Positions 3,301-23,785 of a DNA stretch of 23,785 bases are shown piece after piece. Both the position numbers and the translations under genes were made by a program. The DNA lies in the IMG/VR virus record IMGVR_UViG_3300027782_000361, positions 1 through 23,785 of that record, one strand, 5' to 3'. The notes under the pieces are model-generated. The model searched no databases. It saw only the letters and a program-made list of their open reading frames with translations, and was not told where the DNA came from. How positions within the stretch are numbered: the stretch's first letter is position 1; every line of letters starts with the position of its first letter. This DNA is from a virus.

Positions 3301-4098
3301 TCAAATATCAGTCTGTTGTGTTGGACTATAAGTCTTGGAATCATTAAAGAACTCCCAATTCTCATTGAATCCGAAGTCATCATCTGGTACAGCATTAATA
3401 GGATCTGGAGTTACAGTATATCTCATTTCACGTTTAGCAGTTGTAGTATCAGTACTGGAATACATATCAACCTGAACCTTACGGATGAGACCGTCTGTAG
3501 TATTTGCAATAGGACCAAACAGATATGTTTTTGCCGTAAATTGTAAAGTATATATTAAGGATCTTCTTGTGGAAAAATCTCCCTCATAATCATCTTGAAA
3601 TGATACTGAGTCTAAAACAATTGGAATATCTCTCTTTTCTCCAATAGAATCAATTAGATCTACTGTTAAGTTAAATGATGGTTGAAAATATGGAAGAATT
3701 TGTTCGACAATCTGTAAGGCATCGTCATTTAATTTTGTAAGAATATTAAGTTCAAATCCAATGTTGTATGGAACAGGCATAAAAACCTTCTTTAGATTTG
3801 TTCCGTCAGATGCCTTAAAAGTTTGAGTAACTCCTGCCTTTCTTGTTGAATCATATTGAATAGAAGTCATCTCAAATGACATTCTGGGCAATGTCATTGC
3901 AATTGGTTTATTTAATTCTGGTTGCTGCTCAATTCTTGCCAAAAACTTCTGCACTGGTCCATATGCCAGTGGAACCCTCATATCACTGATTACACTATCA
4001 TTGGAATTTTGATGTTGAATGTGAATTTCGTTAAAGACTGTTCCAAAAGCAATAATTGTCTTTCTTATAATTTGATGGTAGTAATAAGTTCCTAACAT
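3301..4098 (-). CDS. 15: Tail sheath stabilizer and completion protein gp15
   Basis: 265 residues, close to T4 gp15 (272 aa). Diagnostic blocks are 'MLGTYYYHQIIRKTIIAFGTVFN' (split here by position: residues 1-22), 'VPLAYGPVQKFLARIEQ' near 43-58, 'TLPRMSFEM' near 70, 'PVPYNIGFEL' near 108 and 'RRSLIYTLQFTAKTYLFGP' near 180-198. In T4, gp15 forms a hexamer at the top of the finished tail, stabilises the contracted or extended sheath and joins the tail to the neck. The gene starts within the gp14 stop (TAATG) and is followed six bases later by gp16. No insertion modules are seen here, unlike gp14. Confidence 0.93.
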   Translation of the reverse strand: MLGTYYYHQIIRKTIIAFGTVFNEIHIQHQNSNDSVISDMRVPLAYGPVQKFLARIEQQPELNKPIAMTLPRMSFEMTSIQYDSTRKAGVTQTFKASDGTNLKKVFMPVPYNIGFELNILTKLNDDALQIVEQILPYFQPSFNLTVDLIDSIGEKRDIPIVLDSVSFQDDYEGDFSTRRSLIYTLQFTAKTYLFGPIANTTDGLIRKVQVDMYSSTDTTTAKREMRYTVTPDPINAVPDDDFGFNENWEFFNDSKTYSPTQQTDI

Positions 4099-5477
4099 TA
4101 ATAGTTACCAAATGGATTTGATTCTGAGAAATCTACAATAAGATCTGCTTCTGTTTCGATTTCATCATTTTCTTCATATTTATCATGTAATGAAGTCATA
4201 TTGTGTGTTTTAACCGAATATCTTGCCGAAGAAGCGGATCCTACAACTAGTTCTCCAGGATAGAATTGTCCATTATTGATCGATATTTCTAAAATATTAG
4301 TATCTTTATCCCAAGATTTAACTCTTGCAACAGTTCCTGATGTAGATCCAACTACTTCTTCATTAAAAATAAAATTGCCAGTGCCAGAAATAATCGGAGG
4401 AGCACCTAATGTAATTGTCGGTGCTACAGTAAATCCTGCTCCAGCATTTGAAACATATATTTTAGAAATATTTGTACCTTGAAGAGTTGCAAATGCGGAA
4501 GCTGCAATTCCAGGTCCGGTTGTTGGAGCACTGATTGAAATGGTGGGTGGATTCACGTATCCAGATCCACTATTCCCAATACTAATAACTCTTATACCAT
4601 TATATGCAGTCTGTATTCCACAGGTTGCAGCTGCTCCAGATCCACCTCCTCCACTGATCACAATTGATGGTGCAATAGAATATCCAGCACCAGCATTTGT
4701 TAAAACTATATCTCTAATAGAATAAACACCACCAACACTAGTAGTAATAGCAACAGCACTCGCATTTATACCTCCTGCCGGAGCAGTTGATATTGCAACA
4801 ATCGGAGTCGAAGTATATCCAGAACCATCATTAGTTAAATATATTTTTTGAACATATCCGGTGGATAATACAGATGATGCAGTTGCAGTAGAACCCATCG
4901 ATACCAACTCTAAAGATGTAATGTATCCCTGATCCTGTATTGTCTGATCAACTTCGTCAAGAGTTGTATCAAGAACTTCATCTTCATATTCGAAGAGTTC
5001 ACATTTTAATTCATAAACATAAGTTTTACCCAACTGGTAGAATGGTTGCTCGTGCTCGACAAATTTAATTTCAAATAGTCTTCTACCTAAAGGAAAATAA
5101 ACAATATCACCTTCTCTTGGACGAGATGCCAGTACAATCTCATCATCATCCATTGCCACTAAGAATGGTGATATGAAATCCTCAAATCTTTCTTTTGAAA
5201 CAATTAAAGTAAGTTCATCCTTTAAACTCATTCCAAACTTTGTTAAAATATCTCCAGATCCACTATATCCCTCATAGTTTGCAACATATGCTTCAAGGGC
5301 AAAATTATCATCAAATTTTGACGAGGTTACTTCTTTTATTATAGTTTCTTTTCTTACAAATTTTCTTGGAATATAAGTGACTTCAACTCCATATATTTTC
5401 AATTGCTCATTTATGAGTTCTTGAATTAATCTTTGTTCGTTTGCTGAACCTTGTAGAAAAAAGGGATTAAGTGCCAT
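4098..5477 (-). CDS. 14: Neck protein gp14 with a large repeat insertion
   Basis: 459 residues against 256 in T4 gp14. Residues 1 to about 188 match the marine gp14 core (MALNPFFLQGS, VTYIPRKF, SRPREGDIVYFPLGRRLFEI near 118-137). Residues about 430-459 (HDKYEENDEIETEADLIVDF..NPFGNY) match its usual C-terminal tail. Between them lie four GxGY/F modules (key residues at 218-221, 263-266, 304-307 and 346-349; spacing 45, 41 and 42), then a pair of FxxGExVxG-type modules at about 370-382 and 404-416. gp14 works with gp13 to close the portal neck after packaging. The insertion probably forms an exposed beta domain on the neck. This is inferred, not seen. The stop overlaps the gp15 ATG by one base. 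Confidence 0.92.
   Translation of the reverse strand: MALNPFFLQGSANEQRLIQELINEQLKIYGVEVTYIPRKFVRKETIIKEVTSSKFDDNFALEAYVANYEGYSGSGDILTKFGMSLKDELTLIVSKERFEDFISPFLVAMDDDEIVLASRPREGDIVYFPLGRRLFEIKFVEHEQPFYQLGKTYVYELKCELFEYEDEVLDTTLDEVDQTIQDQGYITSLELVSMGSTATASSVLSTGYVQKIYLTNDGSGYTSTPIVAISTAPAGGINASAVAITTSVGGVYSIRDIVLTNAGAGYSIAPSIVISGGGGSGAAATCGIQTAYNGIRVISIGNSGSGYVNPPTISISAPTTGPGIAASAFATLQGTNISKIYVSNAGAGFTVAPTITLGAPPIISGTGNFIFNEEVVGSTSGTVARVKSWDKDTNILEISINNGQFYPGELVVGSASSARYSVKTHNMTSLHDKYEENDEIETEADLIVDFSESNPFGNY
4398..4856 (-). repeat. Four tandem GxGY/F beta modules in gp14
   Basis: This segment encodes residues about 208-360 of gp14 as four diverged modules of 41-45 residues. Each has the pattern I-x-x-I-x-(L/V)-(T/S)-N-x-G-x-G-(Y/F)-x-x-x-P-x-I-x-(I/L)-S/G followed by a Gly/Ala-rich turn. 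Adjacent DNA copies are clearly diverged, so the array is not freshly amplified. Related modules occur in gp8 and in both giant proteins of the window. Confidence 0.8.
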
Positions 5478-5479
5478 AA

Positions 5480-6322
5480 TTATCCAATAAAGTCATAAGG
5501 TGGTAGTTCATATTCAAGTGACATTCTCTGCTTAATATCTTCCAATTCCTTTTCAGCATCTTCATATATTTCTCTACCATTCAATTCAACTCCACCAGGA
5601 AGTTTGACACCCCTAAATTTAATTAAATTTTGTCCCCACTGCTTTTTGATTAATGCAGTAAGGTATTTTTTAATAAAACTATCGTTATAAACATTCGTAA
5701 ATTGGTTTGGATCAAGTATTCTATAGCAATCAATGACAATATATTGATCTGTTTTTTGTGATGCCCAATCAAGATCCAAATATAATCTATTTTGCCTTTT
5801 ATTAAATCTAAGTTGTTTATCTGTAGTCAATAGAAAATCAATATCTTCGAGATATGATTTAACCATAGCATATTGTAAAAGTTCAACTGAGTTAAAATAA
5901 TATAAATCATTTAAAAACAACTGATATTTGATACTAAACATTCCACCAGAAATGGAACTAGTATCGAATTTAAATATTTTTTCAATACCTATAACTGAAT
6001 CTGGTATTTGGATATAATTTGAAGTTTCATAAAAATTATATGTTACAGTGCCAATACCAGTAACATTTGATGTTGCTGTAGTTGTGGTTACTCCTACACC
6101 ATTTGTATTTCTACCTCTACCCCTATCAAGATCTGCTTGAGTAATTTTATATTTCAAATACATTCTCTCAACGCCATCAAAATGCCTCTCTTGAAAGTAC
6201 TGAAGGGCATCATCGACTAAATCATCTATCTGGTCATCATCAACGTTAATCTCTAATACAGGGGCACCTAGGCGTCTTAGACAATAATCTATTAGTCCTT
6301 GTCTACTTGCTGGTTTTGCCAT
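5480..6322 (-). CDS. 13: Neck protein gp13
   Basis: 280 residues, close to T4 gp13 (309 aa). The N terminus carries the family signature: SRQGLIDYCLRRLGAPVL (residues about 6-23), an acidic 'NVDDDQIDDLVDDALQYF' helix, then 'RHFDGVERMYLKYKI' near 45-60. Later blocks typical of marine gp13 include 'DLYYFNSVELLQYAMVKSYLE' split around residue 150 and 'IDCYRILDP' near 200. In T4, gp13 and gp14 form the neck complex that closes the filled head and offers the joining surface for the tail. The gene sits immediately before gp14 with a two-base gap, as in T4 and cyanophages. It has a strong Shine-Dalgarno. Confidence 0.93.
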   Translation of the reverse strand: MAKPASRQGLIDYCLRRLGAPVLEINVDDDQIDDLVDDALQYFQERHFDGVERMYLKYKITQADLDRGRGRNTNGVGVTTTTATSNVTGIGTVTYNFYETSNYIQIPDSVIGIEKIFKFDTSSISGGMFSIKYQLFLNDLYYFNSVELLQYAMVKSYLEDIDFLLTTDKQLRFNKRQNRLYLDLDWASQKTDQYIVIDCYRILDPNQFTNVYNDSFIKKYLTALIKKQWGQNLIKFRGVKLPGGVELNGREIYEDAEKELEDIKQRMSLEYELPPYDFIG

Positions 6323-16468: not shown

Positions 16469-16476
16469 TATTTATA
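16469..16476 (-). promoter_or_regulatory. Candidate T4-like late promoter (TATAAATA) for gp8
   Basis: The minus strand reads TATAAATA here, an exact match to the T4 late promoter octamer recognised by gp55-type sigma. It overlaps the stop codon of the giant upstream gene and ends 17 bases before the gp8 ATG. With usual T4 spacing, transcription would begin about six bases downstream and leave a very short leader. It is the only perfect copy I found in the right position upstream of a gene. In AT-rich DNA a chance match cannot be excluded. Confidence 0.5.
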
Positions 16477-19400
16477 ATAGTTTAGGAAGTGCTCCAGTAT
16501 ATCTCAAACCATTACCCCTTCTCTGAATTGTTGGGAAAGTTGATAATCCAACATCTATGGTATTTCCAGTTACTCCTATAGAAATTGGAGAACTAGACCT
16601 AGTGAATCCTGACAACCTTCCCCAAGAGAATTTGCCTACTGGATTTGATACACTACCTGTAGATGTAAGTCCAACTACAGATGTATTAGATTTTATATTG
16701 CAAGTAATAATTCCAGTAGTACCACTATAAGAGAATTGGTGAATATAGTAAATATTATCTAAGAATGTCGATCCAACACCAACAACTGCAGTATCTGAAC
16801 TATCAATTGAAGTTACTCCCCTTCCAATACGTGTGTCAAAGATATAAATTGGATATCCAGTTTGTAATCCGGTATAAGATGCTGCATTTAAATTAAATTT
16901 AAGTGCCAATGAATTTCCACCACTACCCGTTGTGGTTCCAATTCCTGTAATAGTGCCAGAAAATCCATTCACTAAAGAAATATTTGAAATATTTTCATAG
17001 GTTGGGTCTGGTAGTGGGACAATAACTGCTGGTGGTATACCAATACTATACCCCAATCCAGGATTTGTAATTGTAATTGGTGTTGTTAGAGATCCTGCAG
17101 CAGAGACTGCAATAGTTGCTGTTGCAGTATTTCCAATACCAATACCAATTCCCATAGGTAATGAAGTTGAAATACCTACTGTTAATGGAGCAGCAATTTT
17201 AACATTAACCGATGATCCAGTATATCCACTTCCAGGATTAGTAATCGATAATGATTGAATAGTACCAGCAACAGAGACTATTGCAGTAACTGCTGCAGAT
17301 ACTGGATCAGTAGTTCCAGAAACAATTAAAGCATTAAAATTGACTGGAGATTCTTCCTCATAATTGAAGAAATCTGCATTATCAACAAATATTTGAGTAT
17401 CTGTGGATGAGAAATTTTTAATAATTTTTGCTGTTGGATATACTAAAGATTCAATAGAATCTCTAGTTTTATAAACATTCTCTCCATTAATTTTTCTATC
17501 AACTTTCTGTTTAATCCAACTTAATGGTTTATAATTTTCAGTATCAATTCCATTATCGGAATACAAATTAGTTTCAAATTTATCCGAGAAAGATAAATCA
17601 AATACCGTTCTCTTGTCCTGTGCTATTGTACCAAAAATGCTATTATTTTTAAGTACTTGTACAGTATCTCCTCTTTTTATAGTTTCATTTATAGTTGTAA
17701 CTAAACTACTATCATCACCTTTGGTTCCTCTGTAGAAAAAGATTGCAACTTTATCTTCTGGTTTTGGTGCAGTTGTGAATACAAAAGATGTTCCACCATC
17801 AAACTCGTATGCTACTCCAGGATTTTGGATTACACCATTAACAAAGATTAATAATATATTGGAAAGATTTATTTGAGTATCTGCCTGAGACTCAAAACTT
17901 AATAGTTCGTTATTATAGTATAATGGGAATCTAGTTCTAAATCCATCTTGGTAATTTACAATAGAATCAATATAATCAAATTCTCCAAATTGCCAAGCAG
18001 CAAAGGAATCGGTAAATGTATCAAGAACTGTTAGTTTAAATTCTGATAATGGAGATCCCAATCTAGAATCAGTGACTAAACCAACCGGTTTAAATATATC
18101 TCCACGTTGGAAATTATACCCTTGTCTAGAAATATTAAATTTATTTACTTGATAATATGTTGATCCTATTCCAGTAGTTGAACTTGCACCAACTTCAACA
18201 TTTAATAAAAGTCCGGTTCCAGTAGATGTTGTTGTACCTATACCCAATCTAGATACTCCCGTTACACTAAGATTTTCATATGAAGGTTCGGATACAAATA
18301 TCTTAGGATTGGTATATCCAGTTCCACCATTAATGATACTAAATGATAATGTTCCTCCTGCCCCAACGGATGCTCTTACAGATGCTGCTGTACCTGTATG
18401 CCCACTTTCATATACACTAACTCCTATAGAAACAATACCGTTGTATCCAGAACCAAGATTATCGGTAGTTCCCAAACCAACAGATCTAATTGAACCACCT
18501 GCCCCTACTACAGCAGTCACAGCTGCTCCAACAAGAGGTGCATATCCCAATCCAGCAGATGATCCTAGAGAAATGATTATTCCACCTCTAGGAATTTGAT
18601 TTTGATTTACATCAAATTGAGAAGTAAAAATATCTAAAGTATTTGCTGAAGTAATACCAGAAAATACTACACTACTTACTCCAACAATAGAATTTTCAAC
18701 AATTTTAAAATTATTTGATGGATTATTATCTGTTGTTGGTGTTTGAAAAATACCATTTATAAACAAAATACCATTACCGCCAGTTGAACCCAATCCAACA
18801 GTATTTGCTCCACCAACAGTTAATGTAAAAGTTCTACCAATACCTGTAAATCTGCTAGAAATATCATCATATATTTGATTAGTTGTATAATTATTCCTTA
18901 AATATACTCTTCCAGCAAAATCAGATGTTTCAAAAATTAAATTACTAGAATCTCTTATTATTTGAGGATTTCCTCTAGGTGGTTCAGTAAAGAAAATGCT
19001 ATTTCCAACAATATTATAAGAACCTTTATAAATTCTTGCTTGTGTTGAATCAGTATGTGTTGTTGAAGATGATCCAACAAATCCTCTAGAAACCTCAACG
19101 AGTGGAATTGATCCACTGTTCGTAATTGGCCCTACGTTAGTTGTTCCCAAACCAACACTAACGACTGCCATATACTCATTATCTATTTTAAGAATATTTT
19201 TTGGTGCAATTGTGCTTATTCCACTCAAAGCAAATATTGATGTTCCTATACTAATTTGTCCACCATTCCCCGATAAAGTATGTGATATTGGGGTATATGA
19301 TAATGGATATTGAACTAGGTTATCAATAGTAATAATTGCCTTTTCATTTTTTTTGTACATTTCAAGCATATGTGCATTTCCTTCTCCAACAGAAGTAAAT

Positions 19401-22400
19401 GTTACTCCAATACCACTTTGAGCATTGTTTTTAGTTGTTGCCAATCTAAATGTATTATTATCAACCTTAATTACAAAAACTGTAGAAGGCAAAACATTGG
19501 TTGGACTAATCATCATTGCAGTAGAACCAATTCCCAAAAATGTTGATTTTGGGGTATAAATTAGTTGCTCAGTATTGCTAAAAAAGTGATTTGGTATAGT
19601 AAATGTTCCCGTAGTTCTGTTCAATTCGGAAGTATTGGATGGATCAAATGTTTTTGCAAAAATTGGATATCCATCAGATGTTAAATTAAATTCTGTTCTA
19701 TTAATTCTATCCCCATTGATTGCATTGTAATAATTAACATCGATAGATTCTGAAATTGATCCATATACAAGATCTGGTGGAATATTTACATTATCTAAAA
19801 TTGTATACATGCACTGACTAAATGCAGAAATATTAATTTGTGATGTTATTGTTGAATCTGGGTAGAATTTTAGTACAAAATTATTCCCAGAGTATTCTCC
19901 ACCAAAAGTTCCAATTCCAGTAGTACTTCCAACAGAAAGGAAAGCACCTTGTTGAATATAGAAATTATTAGAATCTTGCACTAACATAATTTGATGCAGT
20001 GCATTTGTAGACCCTGAACCAACTTTAACTAAAGATTTGACTGCTGTAAAATCATTTTTGTTTATTGTTATTACTTCCGTAGATGCTGCAGAAACTGTTG
20101 ATGAATAATTTGATTTGTATATTGCAGTTCTTTCAAATCCATTTGATTGCCCAGGCAATTTAAAACGATATGTTCCAGTACCAATTGCTGTTGTACCAAA
20201 TCCAACAACTCTTGATCTAATAATATTATTATTAGACGAATTATTTGTATAATTTAAAGATAATACTCCAGAAGAAATATTGGCACCAAATGTTCCTATA
20301 AAATTTCCAGAGTAATTATTAGTTGAGAATTCAGAATCAAAATAATATTCGGAAATATAAGTATCTGTTCCATCATGAGTCACGTATAACTCAACAAAAT
20401 TCATATCATTTGTTGTGTTATTGATAACTTGAGTATTAACATAAAGTGAATTAAACTTATTAGCGTCTAAAGATATAATAGATGTTATTATTCCAGACGC
20501 TGCATTAATATAAGATCCAGTTAAATTAACAAAACCAATAGATGTAGTTCCAACTCCAGTAGAAGATGAATTAAATTCGTTAGTAATTAATTTTAAATCA
20601 TAATCAATATTATATGGGTCAACAGGTGTAAACTGCAAATAACTATCATTCAAATTATCCACATATATTGAGAATGATCCAATCTCTTCTCCAGAAGTAT
20701 GTGTAAGTCCAGATCCTACGTTAACTAATGTTCCCTTGTTCAATAAGAAATTGTCCGTACCATCATTTAATAAAACTAATTCTGTTAGTTGAATTTGGGA
20801 ATTATTGGAGCTAGAAATTCTTATTAATAAGTTGTAATAAGATACTCCAGAAGTTAATTTAATAACATTTAAGAAATTACTTGGTTCCCTGTTTAAGTTG
20901 GAAAACTGTCTGCTTATGTCATCTATCGATAGAACTACATTAGTTCTAGATTGAATATAATCAGTAAGTTTTTTATTTTTTAATTTTAAGAATTTAGAAG
21001 AGGTTCCAACAGTATCGATATCTACTACTAAATCAAAATCATAAATGGTGTCCACTCTATTTTCTTCAATTATGTCACAAATTATTGTTGTAGCATTTGA
21101 TGAAGAAATTCCGGAAGTTGCGGTTGATGTAATTCCAGTATCTGCAAAGTTTTTTAATCCACTGGTATGAAGTAAACTATTTACAGGAGTCTTTAAATTT
21201 TGATATGTAATAGGACTCTTTACAGTGTAAGATAGATTTTGATAATAATCATTATTTGGAATTACTTGATCATCATAATCAAGTTTTCCAATATCATCAA
21301 CCCATCCAAGATCTTTTCTAATAGAATAATTAATCTTAAATCTTCCAAAATTATCTTTAATTGAATCTATAGATGCAATATTCCCAGATTCTTTACCTTT
21401 TATGACTTCTCCAACGGATAATTCATAGGATCCAAGTACTTTAATGAATGAATTATTATAATCAGTAATAATCAAATCCCTTTCAATACCATCTGAAATA
21501 ATATTTTCACCAATAATAAATGACGATGATTTTTGAATAACTTCAAAAGTTGGATAATCAGTAATATTTACAATATTTGCAACTGAATCTTGAATTGTTT
21601 TTGCTATCCCAGTATTTGTTGTTAATCCAATAGAACCAAGATCAAGTACAACCTTATCAAGAACACCTGTATAATATCCACTAACGGTAAAAAACTGATA
21701 TCCATACTCTTCTGAATTAAATCCAGATCCACCAACACCAATGTTTTGAATACCTTCCACAAATACTTTATCACCTACAGTGAATGGTAAATTGGTTGTT
21801 GAGAAACCAAGTACTGGTGTAGTAATGAAACAAGTAAAAATTCCACTAGAGGAAGACTCCACTTTTTGAATACTAATTCCATTCGTGTTATTAGTTGCAA
21901 ATAAATGTACTGTTGTTTCTGGAAGACCTTTTGGTTCACTTATAATATTTACTGAAGATATTGAATTTCCTGATAATACTGATTCTAAAATTCCACTATC
22001 AATTTTTTCTCCAGTATTTGTATCTACAACTACAATTGATGGTGGATTAGTATATCCCTTCCCACCATCAGTAACTGAAATACTATCTATCGTATTTGAA
22101 TTTTTTATTGTAATTATGGGTGATATAAATGCAGTTGGTTGTAAAGTTTTATCCGAAGAATATTCAAATTCATCGTTAATAATTCGGACTTCTTTTACAT
22201 TACCTATTGTTGATGATTTTGCAATAATATAAGCATCTTTCCCCTCAATAGAGTCAGATCCTACAAATACAGGAAGTTTTTTATATCCCACTCCACCAGA
22301 GATAATATTGATTTTATTAATAGATCCTTTTTCTGATATGGAGCTGGTAGAATATTCTAAAGCATCACATTCATTTTGAGAATAGTTTAACTTTTCTGGA

Positions 22401-23785
22401 ATTTTATTTAAGGAAATATTAAATGTAGTTTGCCCAATACCTGAAATAACATAATCTGAATTATAATAACTATCTTTAAATAATATTTCTGAATAATTAT
22501 TTACTTCTACATCAGAAATACTAATATATCCAGATTTTTCCAAATTGTAATATAATTTATTTGGCAAATTAGAATCATAATTAATAGTAAGTGAAGCGTT
22601 AGTAGAATTTCCAATAGTTCCTACACCAGAAAGTGTAAATCCACTTGTTGCTCCAGTAGAAACAAATTCATTATTAAAGTTTTGGTCATAATATATTTTG
22701 AAATTATAACCAGAAAGTGAACTATCCGATAAATTAAATACTACATTGTTATTTTTAATTGTTTCAATTTGTGGGTTTATTAATGAAATGCTTTGATTTG
22801 ATCCACCAGTACTAGCAATACTTACTACAACAGGTGGAATAGTATTAACATCAATATAAGTTTTTGAAAGTTTGATATTGTTATCATCAACTTTATATGC
22901 ATAATAAGATCCTGTTGACAATCCAGATGCGACTAAGTTTGCAGAATATAAAACCTTATCTCCAGTATTTAAATTGTGTGAATTAATTGTGATTGTATTG
23001 GTTGTTGTATTAATTCCAGTGGAATTAAATGTAATAGGATTAATTAAAATATTTCCAGTAGTTGCATCCCTCTTAACATAAATTGAAGTTGAAGTTCCAA
23101 TACCAACTGAAAGATTCGGTTTAACATTTAAACTAACAATATCTCCAGCAGTTAATTCGTGGTATGTTGAAACTGAAACTGTAGATTTAATTTTTTGAAC
23201 TTTTCCTAGTTTTTGAGTATATACGCTTTCAAATGAATACCTCTCATTGTCACTTCCATTCGTAATGAAGAATACTTCGGATGAACTAAGAGTAGTCTTG
23301 ATTCCAATAGTATTTTTATTCTTACTTGTTAAGTATACATTTTGTGGCAAATTAAATAGACTTCCAGTTGGTGAAGTTGAAATTGCAATATTTGAACCAC
23401 TAGTTGTAAAAATAACTTGTTGATTATTTGTAAATGGATGATTTTCAATATAAATCCCTTGTGTTGGAATATTTCTTGTAATAGTAGAATCCCCAAATTG
23501 TAAAGTTATTGAATTTGTAATTCCACTTGTAGTCCCAACACCTACAGATTTTTTTGGATTAAAATATACTTTATTGTTAACTTTAGACTCAAAATAATCT
23601 ATATTTTGAGAAATTGTAAATGAATTGGGAATAAAGGTTATTTGTGAAGTTGCAGTATGAGATATTCCAGTTGATCCCCTGGATACTCTAAGTATATTGG
23701 AATTTTCAAATACTTCCAATACTGACATTGTTTCTGTTCCAATTCCAATACTACTTCCAACAGATACTGATGGTGGAAGTTGAGT
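16472..23785 (-). CDS. Giant beta-rich virion structural protein, gp7-position baseplate/tail protein (N terminus missing)
   Basis: The frame stays open to the right edge: 19 codons precede the first ATG (23726-23728) with no stop, so at least 2437 residues are present and the true start is outside the window. The protein is rich in Ser, Thr, Gly, Asn and Ile with few Cys, and consists of many short beta modules. Numbering from that ATG, HxxxxxxQ/DxVxY-like modules lie near residues 97, 251 and 1381. RGxxGxxxxH modules lie near 17 and 1551. GxGY modules lie near 479, 558, 1763, 1804, 2167 and 2226. A YYQNLSY motif near 829 and an NGVIQNPG...FFYRGT block near 1950-2005 are typical, as I recall them, of large cyanophage structural proteins. 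It lies directly upstream of gp8, where T4 has gp7 (1032 aa), so a baseplate wedge role is inferred from position. A tail-fibre-like role is the alternative. I see no enzymatic motif. Confidence 0.8.
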   Translation of the reverse strand, partial: TQLPPSVSVGSSIGIGTETMSVLEVFENSNILRVSRGSTGISHTATSQITFIPNSFTISQNIDYFESKVNNKVYFNPKKSVGVGTTSGITNSITLQFGDSTITRNIPTQGIYIENHPFTNNQQVIFTTSGSNIAISTSPTGSLFNLPQNVYLTSKNKNTIGIKTTLSSSEVFFITNGSDNERYSFESVYTQKLGKVQKIKSTVSVSTYHELTAGDIVSLNVKPNLSVGIGTSTSIYVKRDATTGNILINPITFNSTGINTTTNTITINSHNLNTGDKVLYSANLVASGLSTGSYYAYKVDDNNIKLSKTYIDVNTIPPVVVSIASTGGSNQSISLINPQIETIKNNNVVFNLSDSSLSGYNFKIYYDQNFNNEFVSTGATSGFTLSGVGTIGNSTNASLTINYDSNLPNKLYYNLEKSGYISISDVEVNNYSEILFKDSYYNSDYVISGIGQTTFNISLNKIPEKLNYSQNECDALEYSTSSISEKGSINKINIISGGVGYKKLPVFVGSDSIEGKDAYIIAKSSTIGNVKEVRIINDEFEYSSDKTLQPTAFISPIITIKNSNTIDSISVTDGGKGYTNPPSIVVVDTNTGEKIDSGILESVLSGNSISSVNIISEPKGLPETTVHLFATNNTNGISIQKVESSSSGIFTCFITTPVLGFSTTNLPFTVGDKVFVEGIQNIGVGGSGFNSEEYGYQFFTVSGYYTGVLDKVVLDLGSIGLTTNTGIAKTIQDSVANIVNITDYPTFEVIQKSSSFIIGENIISDGIERDLIITDYNNSFIKVLGSYELSVGEVIKGKESGNIASIDSIKDNFGRFKINYSIRKDLGWVDDIGKLDYDDQVIPNNDYYQNLSYTVKSPITYQNLKTPVNSLLHTSGLKNFADTGITSTATSGISSSNATTIICDIIEENRVDTIYDFDLVVDIDTVGTSSKFLKLKNKKLTDYIQSRTNVVLSIDDISRQFSNLNREPSNFLNVIKLTSGVSYYNLLIRISSSNNSQIQLTELVLLNDGTDNFLLNKGTLVNVGSGLTHTSGEEIGSFSIYVDNLNDSYLQFTPVDPYNIDYDLKLITNEFNSSSTGVGTTSIGFVNLTGSYINAASGIITSIISLDANKFNSLYVNTQVINNTTNDMNFVELYVTHDGTDTYISEYYFDSEFSTNNYSGNFIGTFGANISSGVLSLNYTNNSSNNNIIRSRVVGFGTTAIGTGTYRFKLPGQSNGFERTAIYKSNYSSTVSAASTEVITINKNDFTAVKSLVKVGSGSTNALHQIMLVQDSNNFYIQQGAFLSVGSTTGIGTFGGEYSGNNFVLKFYPDSTITSQINISAFSQCMYTILDNVNIPPDLVYGSISESIDVNYYNAINGDRINRTEFNLTSDGYPIFAKTFDPSNTSELNRTTGTFTIPNHFFSNTEQLIYTPKSTFLGIGSTAMMISPTNVLPSTVFVIKVDNNTFRLATTKNNAQSGIGVTFTSVGEGNAHMLEMYKKNEKAIITIDNLVQYPLSYTPISHTLSGNGGQISIGTSIFALSGISTIAPKNILKIDNEYMAVVSVGLGTTNVGPITNSGSIPLVEVSRGFVGSSSTTHTDSTQARIYKGSYNIVGNSIFFTEPPRGNPQIIRDSSNLIFETSDFAGRVYLRNNYTTNQIYDDISSRFTGIGRTFTLTVGGANTVGLGSTGGNGILFINGIFQTPTTDNNPSNNFKIVENSIVGVSSVVFSGITSANTLDIFTSQFDVNQNQIPRGGIIISLGSSAGLGYAPLVGAAVTAVVGAGGSIRSVGLGTTDNLGSGYNGIVSIGVSVYESGHTGTAASVRASVGAGGTLSFSIINGGTGYTNPKIFVSEPSYENLSVTGVSRLGIGTTTSTGTGLLLNVEVGASSTTGIGSTYYQVNKFNISRQGYNFQRGDIFKPVGLVTDSRLGSPLSEFKLTVLDTFTDSFAAWQFGEFDYIDSIVNYQDGFRTRFPLYYNNELLSFESQADTQINLSNILLIFVNGVIQNPGVAYEFDGGTSFVFTTAPKPEDKVAIFFYRGTKGDDSSLVTTINETIKRGDTVQVLKNNSIFGTIAQDKRTVFDLSFSDKFETNLYSDNGIDTENYKPLSWIKQKVDRKINGENVYKTRDSIESLVYPTAKIIKNFSSTDTQIFVDNADFFNYEEESPVNFNALIVSGTTDPVSAAVTAIVSVAGTIQSLSITNPGSGYTGSSVNVKIAAPLTVGISTSLPMGIGIGIGNTATATIAVSAAGSLTTPITITNPGLGYSIGIPPAVIVPLPDPTYENISNISLVNGFSGTITGIGTTTGSGGNSLALKFNLNAASYTGLQTGYPIYIFDTRIGRGVTSIDSSDTAVVGVGSTFLDNIYYIHQFSYSGTTGIITCNIKSNTSVVGLTSTGSVSNPVGKFSWGRLSGFTRSSSPISIGVTGNTIDVGLSTFPTIQRRGNGLRYTGALPKLL
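17030..17260 (-). repeat. Pair of GxGY modules near the C terminus of the giant gp7-position protein
   Basis: Two modules, ITNPGSGYTG and ITNPGLGYSI, lie about 59 residues apart. They are separated by a Gly/Ile/Ala-rich run that includes GIGIGIGN. They resemble the gp14 array most closely (N-x-G-x-G-Y). They are diverged in DNA. Confidence 0.6.
18300..18460 (-). repeat. Second pair of GxGY modules in the giant gp7-position protein
   Basis: The segment encodes GSGYNGIVSIG followed about 41 residues later by GGTGYTNPKIF, the same spacing as in the gp14 array. Between them is an Ala/Gly-rich strand (GTAASVRASVGAGG). Confidence 0.6.

Follow-up and report, generated by a model that had tools for sequence, protein, structure and literature searches.

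Few phages are known to decorate their necks, and the decorations compared here are separate proteins. In T4, fibritin (wac), a trimer, forms whiskers at the neck, and a sensing role has been proposed for them. The accessible part of a T4 structural account (PMC12270204) places the binding of fibritin on gp13 residues 193-238 (domain III), and describes gp14 as a hexamer that touches gp15 in the virion through residues 178-256. The lactococcal 936 phages carry a neck passage structure decorated with carbohydrate-binding modules, one of which bound host cells weakly (available text of PMC6669499). For the cyanomyoviruses, the available sections of a review (PMC2984593) report no wac, an S-PM2 virion that shows no collar, and one St. 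Kilda isolate, whose name is not given there, that had whiskers. In S-SM1 virions, gp14 is among the proteins newly detected by mass spectrometry (accessible portion of PMC3037559).

Here we examine a neck protein that is itself extended by repeated modules. The source is a virus record, IMGVR_UViG_3300027782_000361, positions 1 to 23,785; this whole stretch of 23,785 nucleotides is called the window. The array in its gp14 is real and family-wide. Our literature search, which covered a minority of subscription journals and no bioRxiv preprints, found no published account of this array or of a laminin-G domain in a phage neck.

Gene 14 and its inserted array

The window virus is a phage of aquatic cyanobacteria (cyanophage). 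The gene order 13-14-15-16 is kept: a gp13-type protein (PHROG 211), gp14, gp15 (PF16724), and the small terminase. The features discussed below are as follows.

3301..4098, minus strand: gene 15, tail sheath stabiliser and presumed partner of the gp14 tail (PF16724, E 4e-90)
4098..5477, minus strand: gene 14, neck / head-closure protein, 459 aa (open reading frame with ATG start; PF11649; PHROG 460)
5480..6322, minus strand: gene 13, neck protein without the T4 fibritin-binding domain III (PHROG 211; 6 of 46 columns)
4932..5477, minus strand: gp14 core, residues 1-182 (Pfam match to 3-182; model match to T4 gp14)
4899..4925, minus strand: putative first strand of a proposed small barrel, residues 185-193 (predicted strand at 187-192 in the full-length model and at 185-192 in the model of residues 170-459)
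4380..4898, minus strand: array of four GxGY/F modules, residues 194-366 (profile matches; pLDDT about 90 in most blocks)
4773..4886, minus strand: module A1, residues 198-235 (profile match)
4641..4763, minus strand: module A2, residues 239-279 (profile match)
4515..4631, minus strand: module A3, residues 283-321 (profile match)
4392..4502, minus strand: module A4, residues 326-362 (profile match)
4197..4379, minus strand: FxxGE domain (domain B), residues 367-427 (profile match to 365-423, E 1.3e-30; predicted strands)
4101..4196, minus strand: conserved C-terminal tail with NPFG, residues 428-459 (alignments)

The window gp14 is a head-closure protein of the T4 superfamily, in which all of the testable defining features are present. 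Residues 3-182 match the Pfam family T4_neck-protein (PF11649; E 2.3e-31, 109.6 bits against a cut-off of 25), and the protein matches PHROG 460 (head closure Hc2) at E 7.8e-131. It is neither a fibritin nor itself a lectin; Pfam gave no match in it to Fibritin_C or to laminin-G. With T4 gp14 (PF11649; PDB 9mkb, 9lu4-9lu7) it shares the core fold, the gene order 13-14-15, and a C-terminal arm with a PF-type tail; T4-type gp14, tested on T2, has neither domain B nor modules.

An earlier note on this DNA had read gp14 as enlarged by a domain insertion between intact flanks, and this description holds. The protein has 459 aa against 256 aa in T2 gp14, the T4-type protein tested; its core is kept, and the tail ending in NPFG is conserved family-wide in alignments; in pf16, KVP40, and T2 it is reduced to a remnant NPF or PF. 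Lengths, alignments, and module profiles all support the insertion.

The four GxGY/F modules described in that note are present, with GxG[YF] at residues 218, 263, 304, and 346. Chance repetition is ruled out as the source of the array by shuffling: within residues 185-430 the four observed motifs compare with a shuffle mean of 0.28, none of 10,000 shuffles reached four, and the four-module profile matched none of 1,000 shuffled inserts. The note's two FxxGExVxG modules survive in part; the motif is exact at 405 (FYPGELVVG) and degenerate at 369 (FIFNEEVVG), and the two belong not to separate modules but to a single domain of ~60 residues (365-423). The array modules have no match in Pfam or NCBIfam, where a xylulokinase line lies far below its cut-off, and a sequence search for solved relatives of the array found none (best E 0.38). 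A bacterial origin of the array was considered and set aside, as one scan of genome contigs, a weak one based on exact short patterns, returned no relative.

Structure models place the array outside the core fold. The full-length AlphaFold model (36 sequences) is of modest confidence (pLDDT 69.7, pTM 0.44); its residues 24-165 match T4 gp14 (9lu4_M; Z 11.2, 3.8 A, 105 residues aligned), and Foldseek aligns the core with T4 gp14 9lu5_M at E 7.6e-8. Residues 170-459 modeled alone (27 sequences) reach pLDDT 80.9 and pTM 0.68, with about 90 or more in most array blocks; a Foldseek search with this model gave nothing within an E limit of 0.001, which is not proof of a new fold. In the models the array is separate and well predicted, and the core alone matches T4 gp14.

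The models also bear on how the insertion is built. In S-PM2 gp14 (292 aa) a short strand is contiguous with the FxxGE domain, whereas in the window the modules separate the two. Small solved barrels (e.g., aIF2 gamma domain 3) align weakly over ~70 residues, with Z at most 6.5, spanning model residues 15-258, a range that gives the first and last aligned residues only and does not fix the position of the gap. Because so few aligned residues are spread over so long a stretch, the predicted barrel is probably built from both sides of the array. Sequence, length steps of ~85-90 residues, and models together suggest a nested insertion, in which the C-terminal arm bears a small barrel and pairs of modules are set into the first loop of that barrel.

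Module number across phages

The array is not unique to the window phage: 252 of 2378 tblastn-matching phage records cover at least 80% of the protein at one place. The best match is S-SRM01 (65.9%), and the next named isolates are P-SSM2 and P-SSM5 (55.7%). The gp14 proteins of P-SSM2, S-SRM01, and S-SKS1 (Kyanoviridae and Llyrvirus) share the four modules, domain B, and the tail. They are orthologues by position and sequence, annotated merely as neck proteins, and at full-length identities of 56%, 66%, and 50%, respectively, they differ from the window gp14 by sequence divergence only. In S-SRM01, a gene with an HNH domain lies between genes 14 and 15 (L081:4430-4957); it is absent from the window.

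Profiles assign the named phages to distinct states. Four modules occur in the window, S-SRM01, P-SSM2, and S-SKS1, and four are found in Sf-FS3; ACG-2014a, S-RIM2, and Sf-FP1 have two; S-CAM9 has eight. S-SM1, S-PM2, and S-RIM44 have domain B and no modules, and T2, KVP40, pf16, Vi01, and HTVC008M have neither. Protein lengths run from 256 aa in T2, 290 in HTVC008M, 292 in S-PM2, and 308 in S-SM1, through 390 in S-RIM2, to 470 in P-SSM2, 491 in S-SKS1, 657 in S-CAM9, and 763 in Sf-FS3. The possibility that all marine gp14 proteins carry equal repeats is ruled out, since module number goes from 0 (HTVC008M, S-PM2) via 2 and 4 to about 10. The window gp14 is not exceptional; four modules are the common state of its whole clade.

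For a wider view, we drew on six viral-contig scans with chosen queries, taking the best 80 of each; this sample is query-biased and does not measure prevalence. After incomplete or 3'-open reading frames were dropped, 489 proteins with a core gave 458 full and 357 distinct sequences. Among these 357 (best 80 per scan), 49 have neither domain, 3 have domain B only, 66 have two modules, 199 have four (17 of them with a laminin-G segment), and 40 have 3 or 5-10. The median span from core to domain B is 185 residues in proteins with four modules, rises to about 270 in those with 5-6, and reaches 366 in those with 7; in two-module proteins it is 116, a figure inflated by an ACG-2014a domain-B match that starts inside the profile. 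Because spans cluster near 185, 270, and 365 residues, and because proteins with three modules have the span of those with four, modules seem to have been missed where the count is odd, and the array seems to grow in pairs.

Array size is clustered on a quick core tree with long branches, from which this is the only result drawn: at least 13 changes are needed against a shuffled mean of 35.9. The window lies among four-module proteins in a diverse clade, and larger arrays appear in several places. Proteins of 1021-1109 aa with 8-10 modules (L144:2998-6324 and loci L146, L152, L173, L170, L149, and L154) contain a conserved mid-array stretch of roughly 150-250 residues. Separately, gp15 has 359-360 aa in S-CAM9, Sf-FS3, and S-SSM7, where gp14 is large or carries laminin-G, against 265 aa in the window (L084:3982-5061, L085:4313-5392, L495:5435-6517); Pfam recognised nothing in the C-terminal extension of the two that were scanned.

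Probable exposure, divergence, and reuse of the modules

In some relatives the array holds a further domain. Residues 322-448 of Sf-FS3 gp14 match Laminin_G_3 above the curated cut-off. Nine further gp14 proteins were scanned: eight relatives match Laminin_G_3, four of them above cut-off, and the one without an insert has no match. A laminin-G segment is found in 30 of the 357 distinct proteins (best 80 per scan), in all 30 between core and domain B. A segment of this type (about 210 residues) also occurs in gp14 of S-SSM7 and S-SSM6a, the latter known from a tblastn match only. Sf-FS3 and S-SSM7 share core, modules, and domain B with the window; they and S-SSM6a differ from it by this segment. 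A laminin-G-like stretch suspected by eye in the 1022-1109-aa proteins (L144, L173, and relatives) was not confirmed. Since a lectin-type domain sits inside the array in relatives, the array site is probably exposed and able to take up domains.

We infer the nesting of the barrel, the hexameric state, the outward direction, and the function of the window gp14 as follows. Residues 185-193 and 367-427 would form a small beta-barrel on the C-terminal arm, and two pairs of GxGY/F beta modules (194-366) would be inserted in its first loop; the conserved tail after the barrel would dock on gp15, a contact taken by analogy from T4. With six copies around the neck, the modules would point outward as short arms. 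The array adds a computed ~16.5 kDa per gp14, and a T4-type channel, going by its description in the available part of PMC12270204, would be too small for six extra arrays. The arms would most likely serve as surface decoration, either a spacer or a weak host- or glycan-contacting device; lineages would lengthen them by pairs of modules and in some cases add a laminin-G domain. We put the probability of this whole reading, an outward accessory neck decoration, at about 0.5.

An alternative is that the arrays pack on gp15, the top of the sheath, or a capsid vertex, and stiffen the neck with no host contact. The array-bearing arm is the arm that binds gp15 in T4 (accessible part of PMC12270204), the collar of phage Milano is described as a stability structure without fibres (available portion of PMC10491603), and in alignments Gly, Pro, Ala, and Tyr account for most of the invariant array positions. 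A stiffening element is, however, hard to square with a module number that varies from 0 to about 10, with S-PM2 and HTVC008M having none, and laminin-G inside the array fits exposure better. We consider this explanation unlikely.

Sequence divergence gives a measured picture. Among 108 related loci and the window (of 160 four-module loci, the 108 in which both gp13 and gp15 are complete), mean pairwise identity is 49.5% for the array, 70.5% for the core, 73.0% for gp15, and 80.2% for gp13. Pairwise identities of array and core correlate at 0.74, and those of core and gp15 at 0.55. The faster divergence of the array favors the decoration reading. Against that reading, the array diverges only moderately faster than the core and tracks its history, unlike a swapped receptor binder. 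Synechococcus WH7803 is the recorded host of both S-PM2 (no modules) and S-SKS1 (four modules), so the array is dispensable on that host.

The modules are not confined to gp14. The window also encodes, at 16472-23785 on the minus strand, a 2437-aa baseplate-wedge-type protein (PHROG 2885) with four matches to the GxGY module profile; since both proteins match, one module is reused in two virion parts. Modules further occur in PHROG tail-fibre and baseplate families, P-SSM4 gp7, and a tail-fibre-like protein of S-RSM4, and their presence in such proteins is as compatible with a generic structural use as with adhesion. This spread is what would be expected if beta modules moved through many virion proteins and accumulated with little specific function. 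Drift of this kind is rather unlikely, as gp14 modules keep position-specific sequences across the clade (54-71 bits to their own profile, 18-36 to the others) and a diverse clade has kept four modules.

A related observation concerns annotation. In HTVC008M, I899_gp055 (L096:33435-36485, 1016 aa) lies among baseplate wedge genes and carries the annotation "head closure Hc2", although I899_gp074 occupies the gp14 position. PHROG 3465, which bears the head closure Hc2 name, weakly matches the gp14 array, and the label on I899_gp055 was perhaps carried over through shared modules.

The missing fibritin dock and the proposed role of the array

The window lacks the T4 docking site for whiskers. 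Of the 46 columns of gp13 domain III (T2 gp13 193-238), the window gp13 and 11 other cyanophage-type gp13 proteins fill 6, against 46 in T2 and 41 in KVP40; the stretch is missing in Vi01, and pf16 was left out of the comparison. The gp13 of S-CAM9 (L084:871-1992) has 373 aa, with ~90-residue insertions relative to other cyanophage gp13. Fibritin_C had no match in the 23.8-kb record, in a search equally silent on its controls, and none in ten cyanophage-type genomes, in a search that found one of two controls (T2) and missed KVP40, which is annotated with wac. Compared with T4 fibritin, the window array shares the neck position and the proposed sensing role, and differs in that neither the fibritin C-terminal domain nor its dock was found in the window.

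These absences raise the idea that the arrays hold or sense long tail fibres in place of T4 whiskers, an idea with which the review's wac-less cyanomyoviruses, collarless S-PM2, and whiskered St. Kilda isolate (available sections of PMC2984593) also agree. Yet fibritin and domain III are likewise missing from phages without modules, and the array is therefore not a simple exchange for them. Because fibritin is absent from phages with and without modules, its absence alone does not point to the array; moreover, the Fibritin_C profile missed KVP40, and our literature search found no link between S-SKS1 and the whiskered isolate. A substitute for fibritin is, on this evidence, improbable.

The probable exposure of the site and the missing gp13 dock together favor the outward neck decoration, which we regard as plausible. 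The laminin-G segments in the arrays of relatives and the missing dock also lend indirect support to the whisker, adhesin, or glycan-binding role suggested in the earlier note, and the array is possibly a weak glycan-binding or whisker-like device. By analogy, its mode of action may resemble that of the 936 neck passage structure. Compared by description (available text of PMC6669499), the two share decoration at the level of the neck; the 936 structure is a separate protein with a BppU-like N-terminus, and in the window the head-closure protein itself is extended.

A broader and more tentative idea, which we hold to be unlikely as it stands, is that in cyanobacterial T4-like phages without fibritin and its dock the head-closure protein became a collar organ. 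Its six outward arms, built of paired beta modules, extended step by step, and bearing a lectin-type domain in some lineages, would touch the host surface or hold tail fibres. The idea is open to direct test, since module numbers of 0, 2, 4, and more occur among natural relatives. What the array reveals is a head-sealing protein, in a common group of aquatic viruses, with a site into which repeats and a lectin-type domain can be taken up. Should the arms point away from the neck, these phages would have a second device for host contact or fibre control, away from the baseplate.
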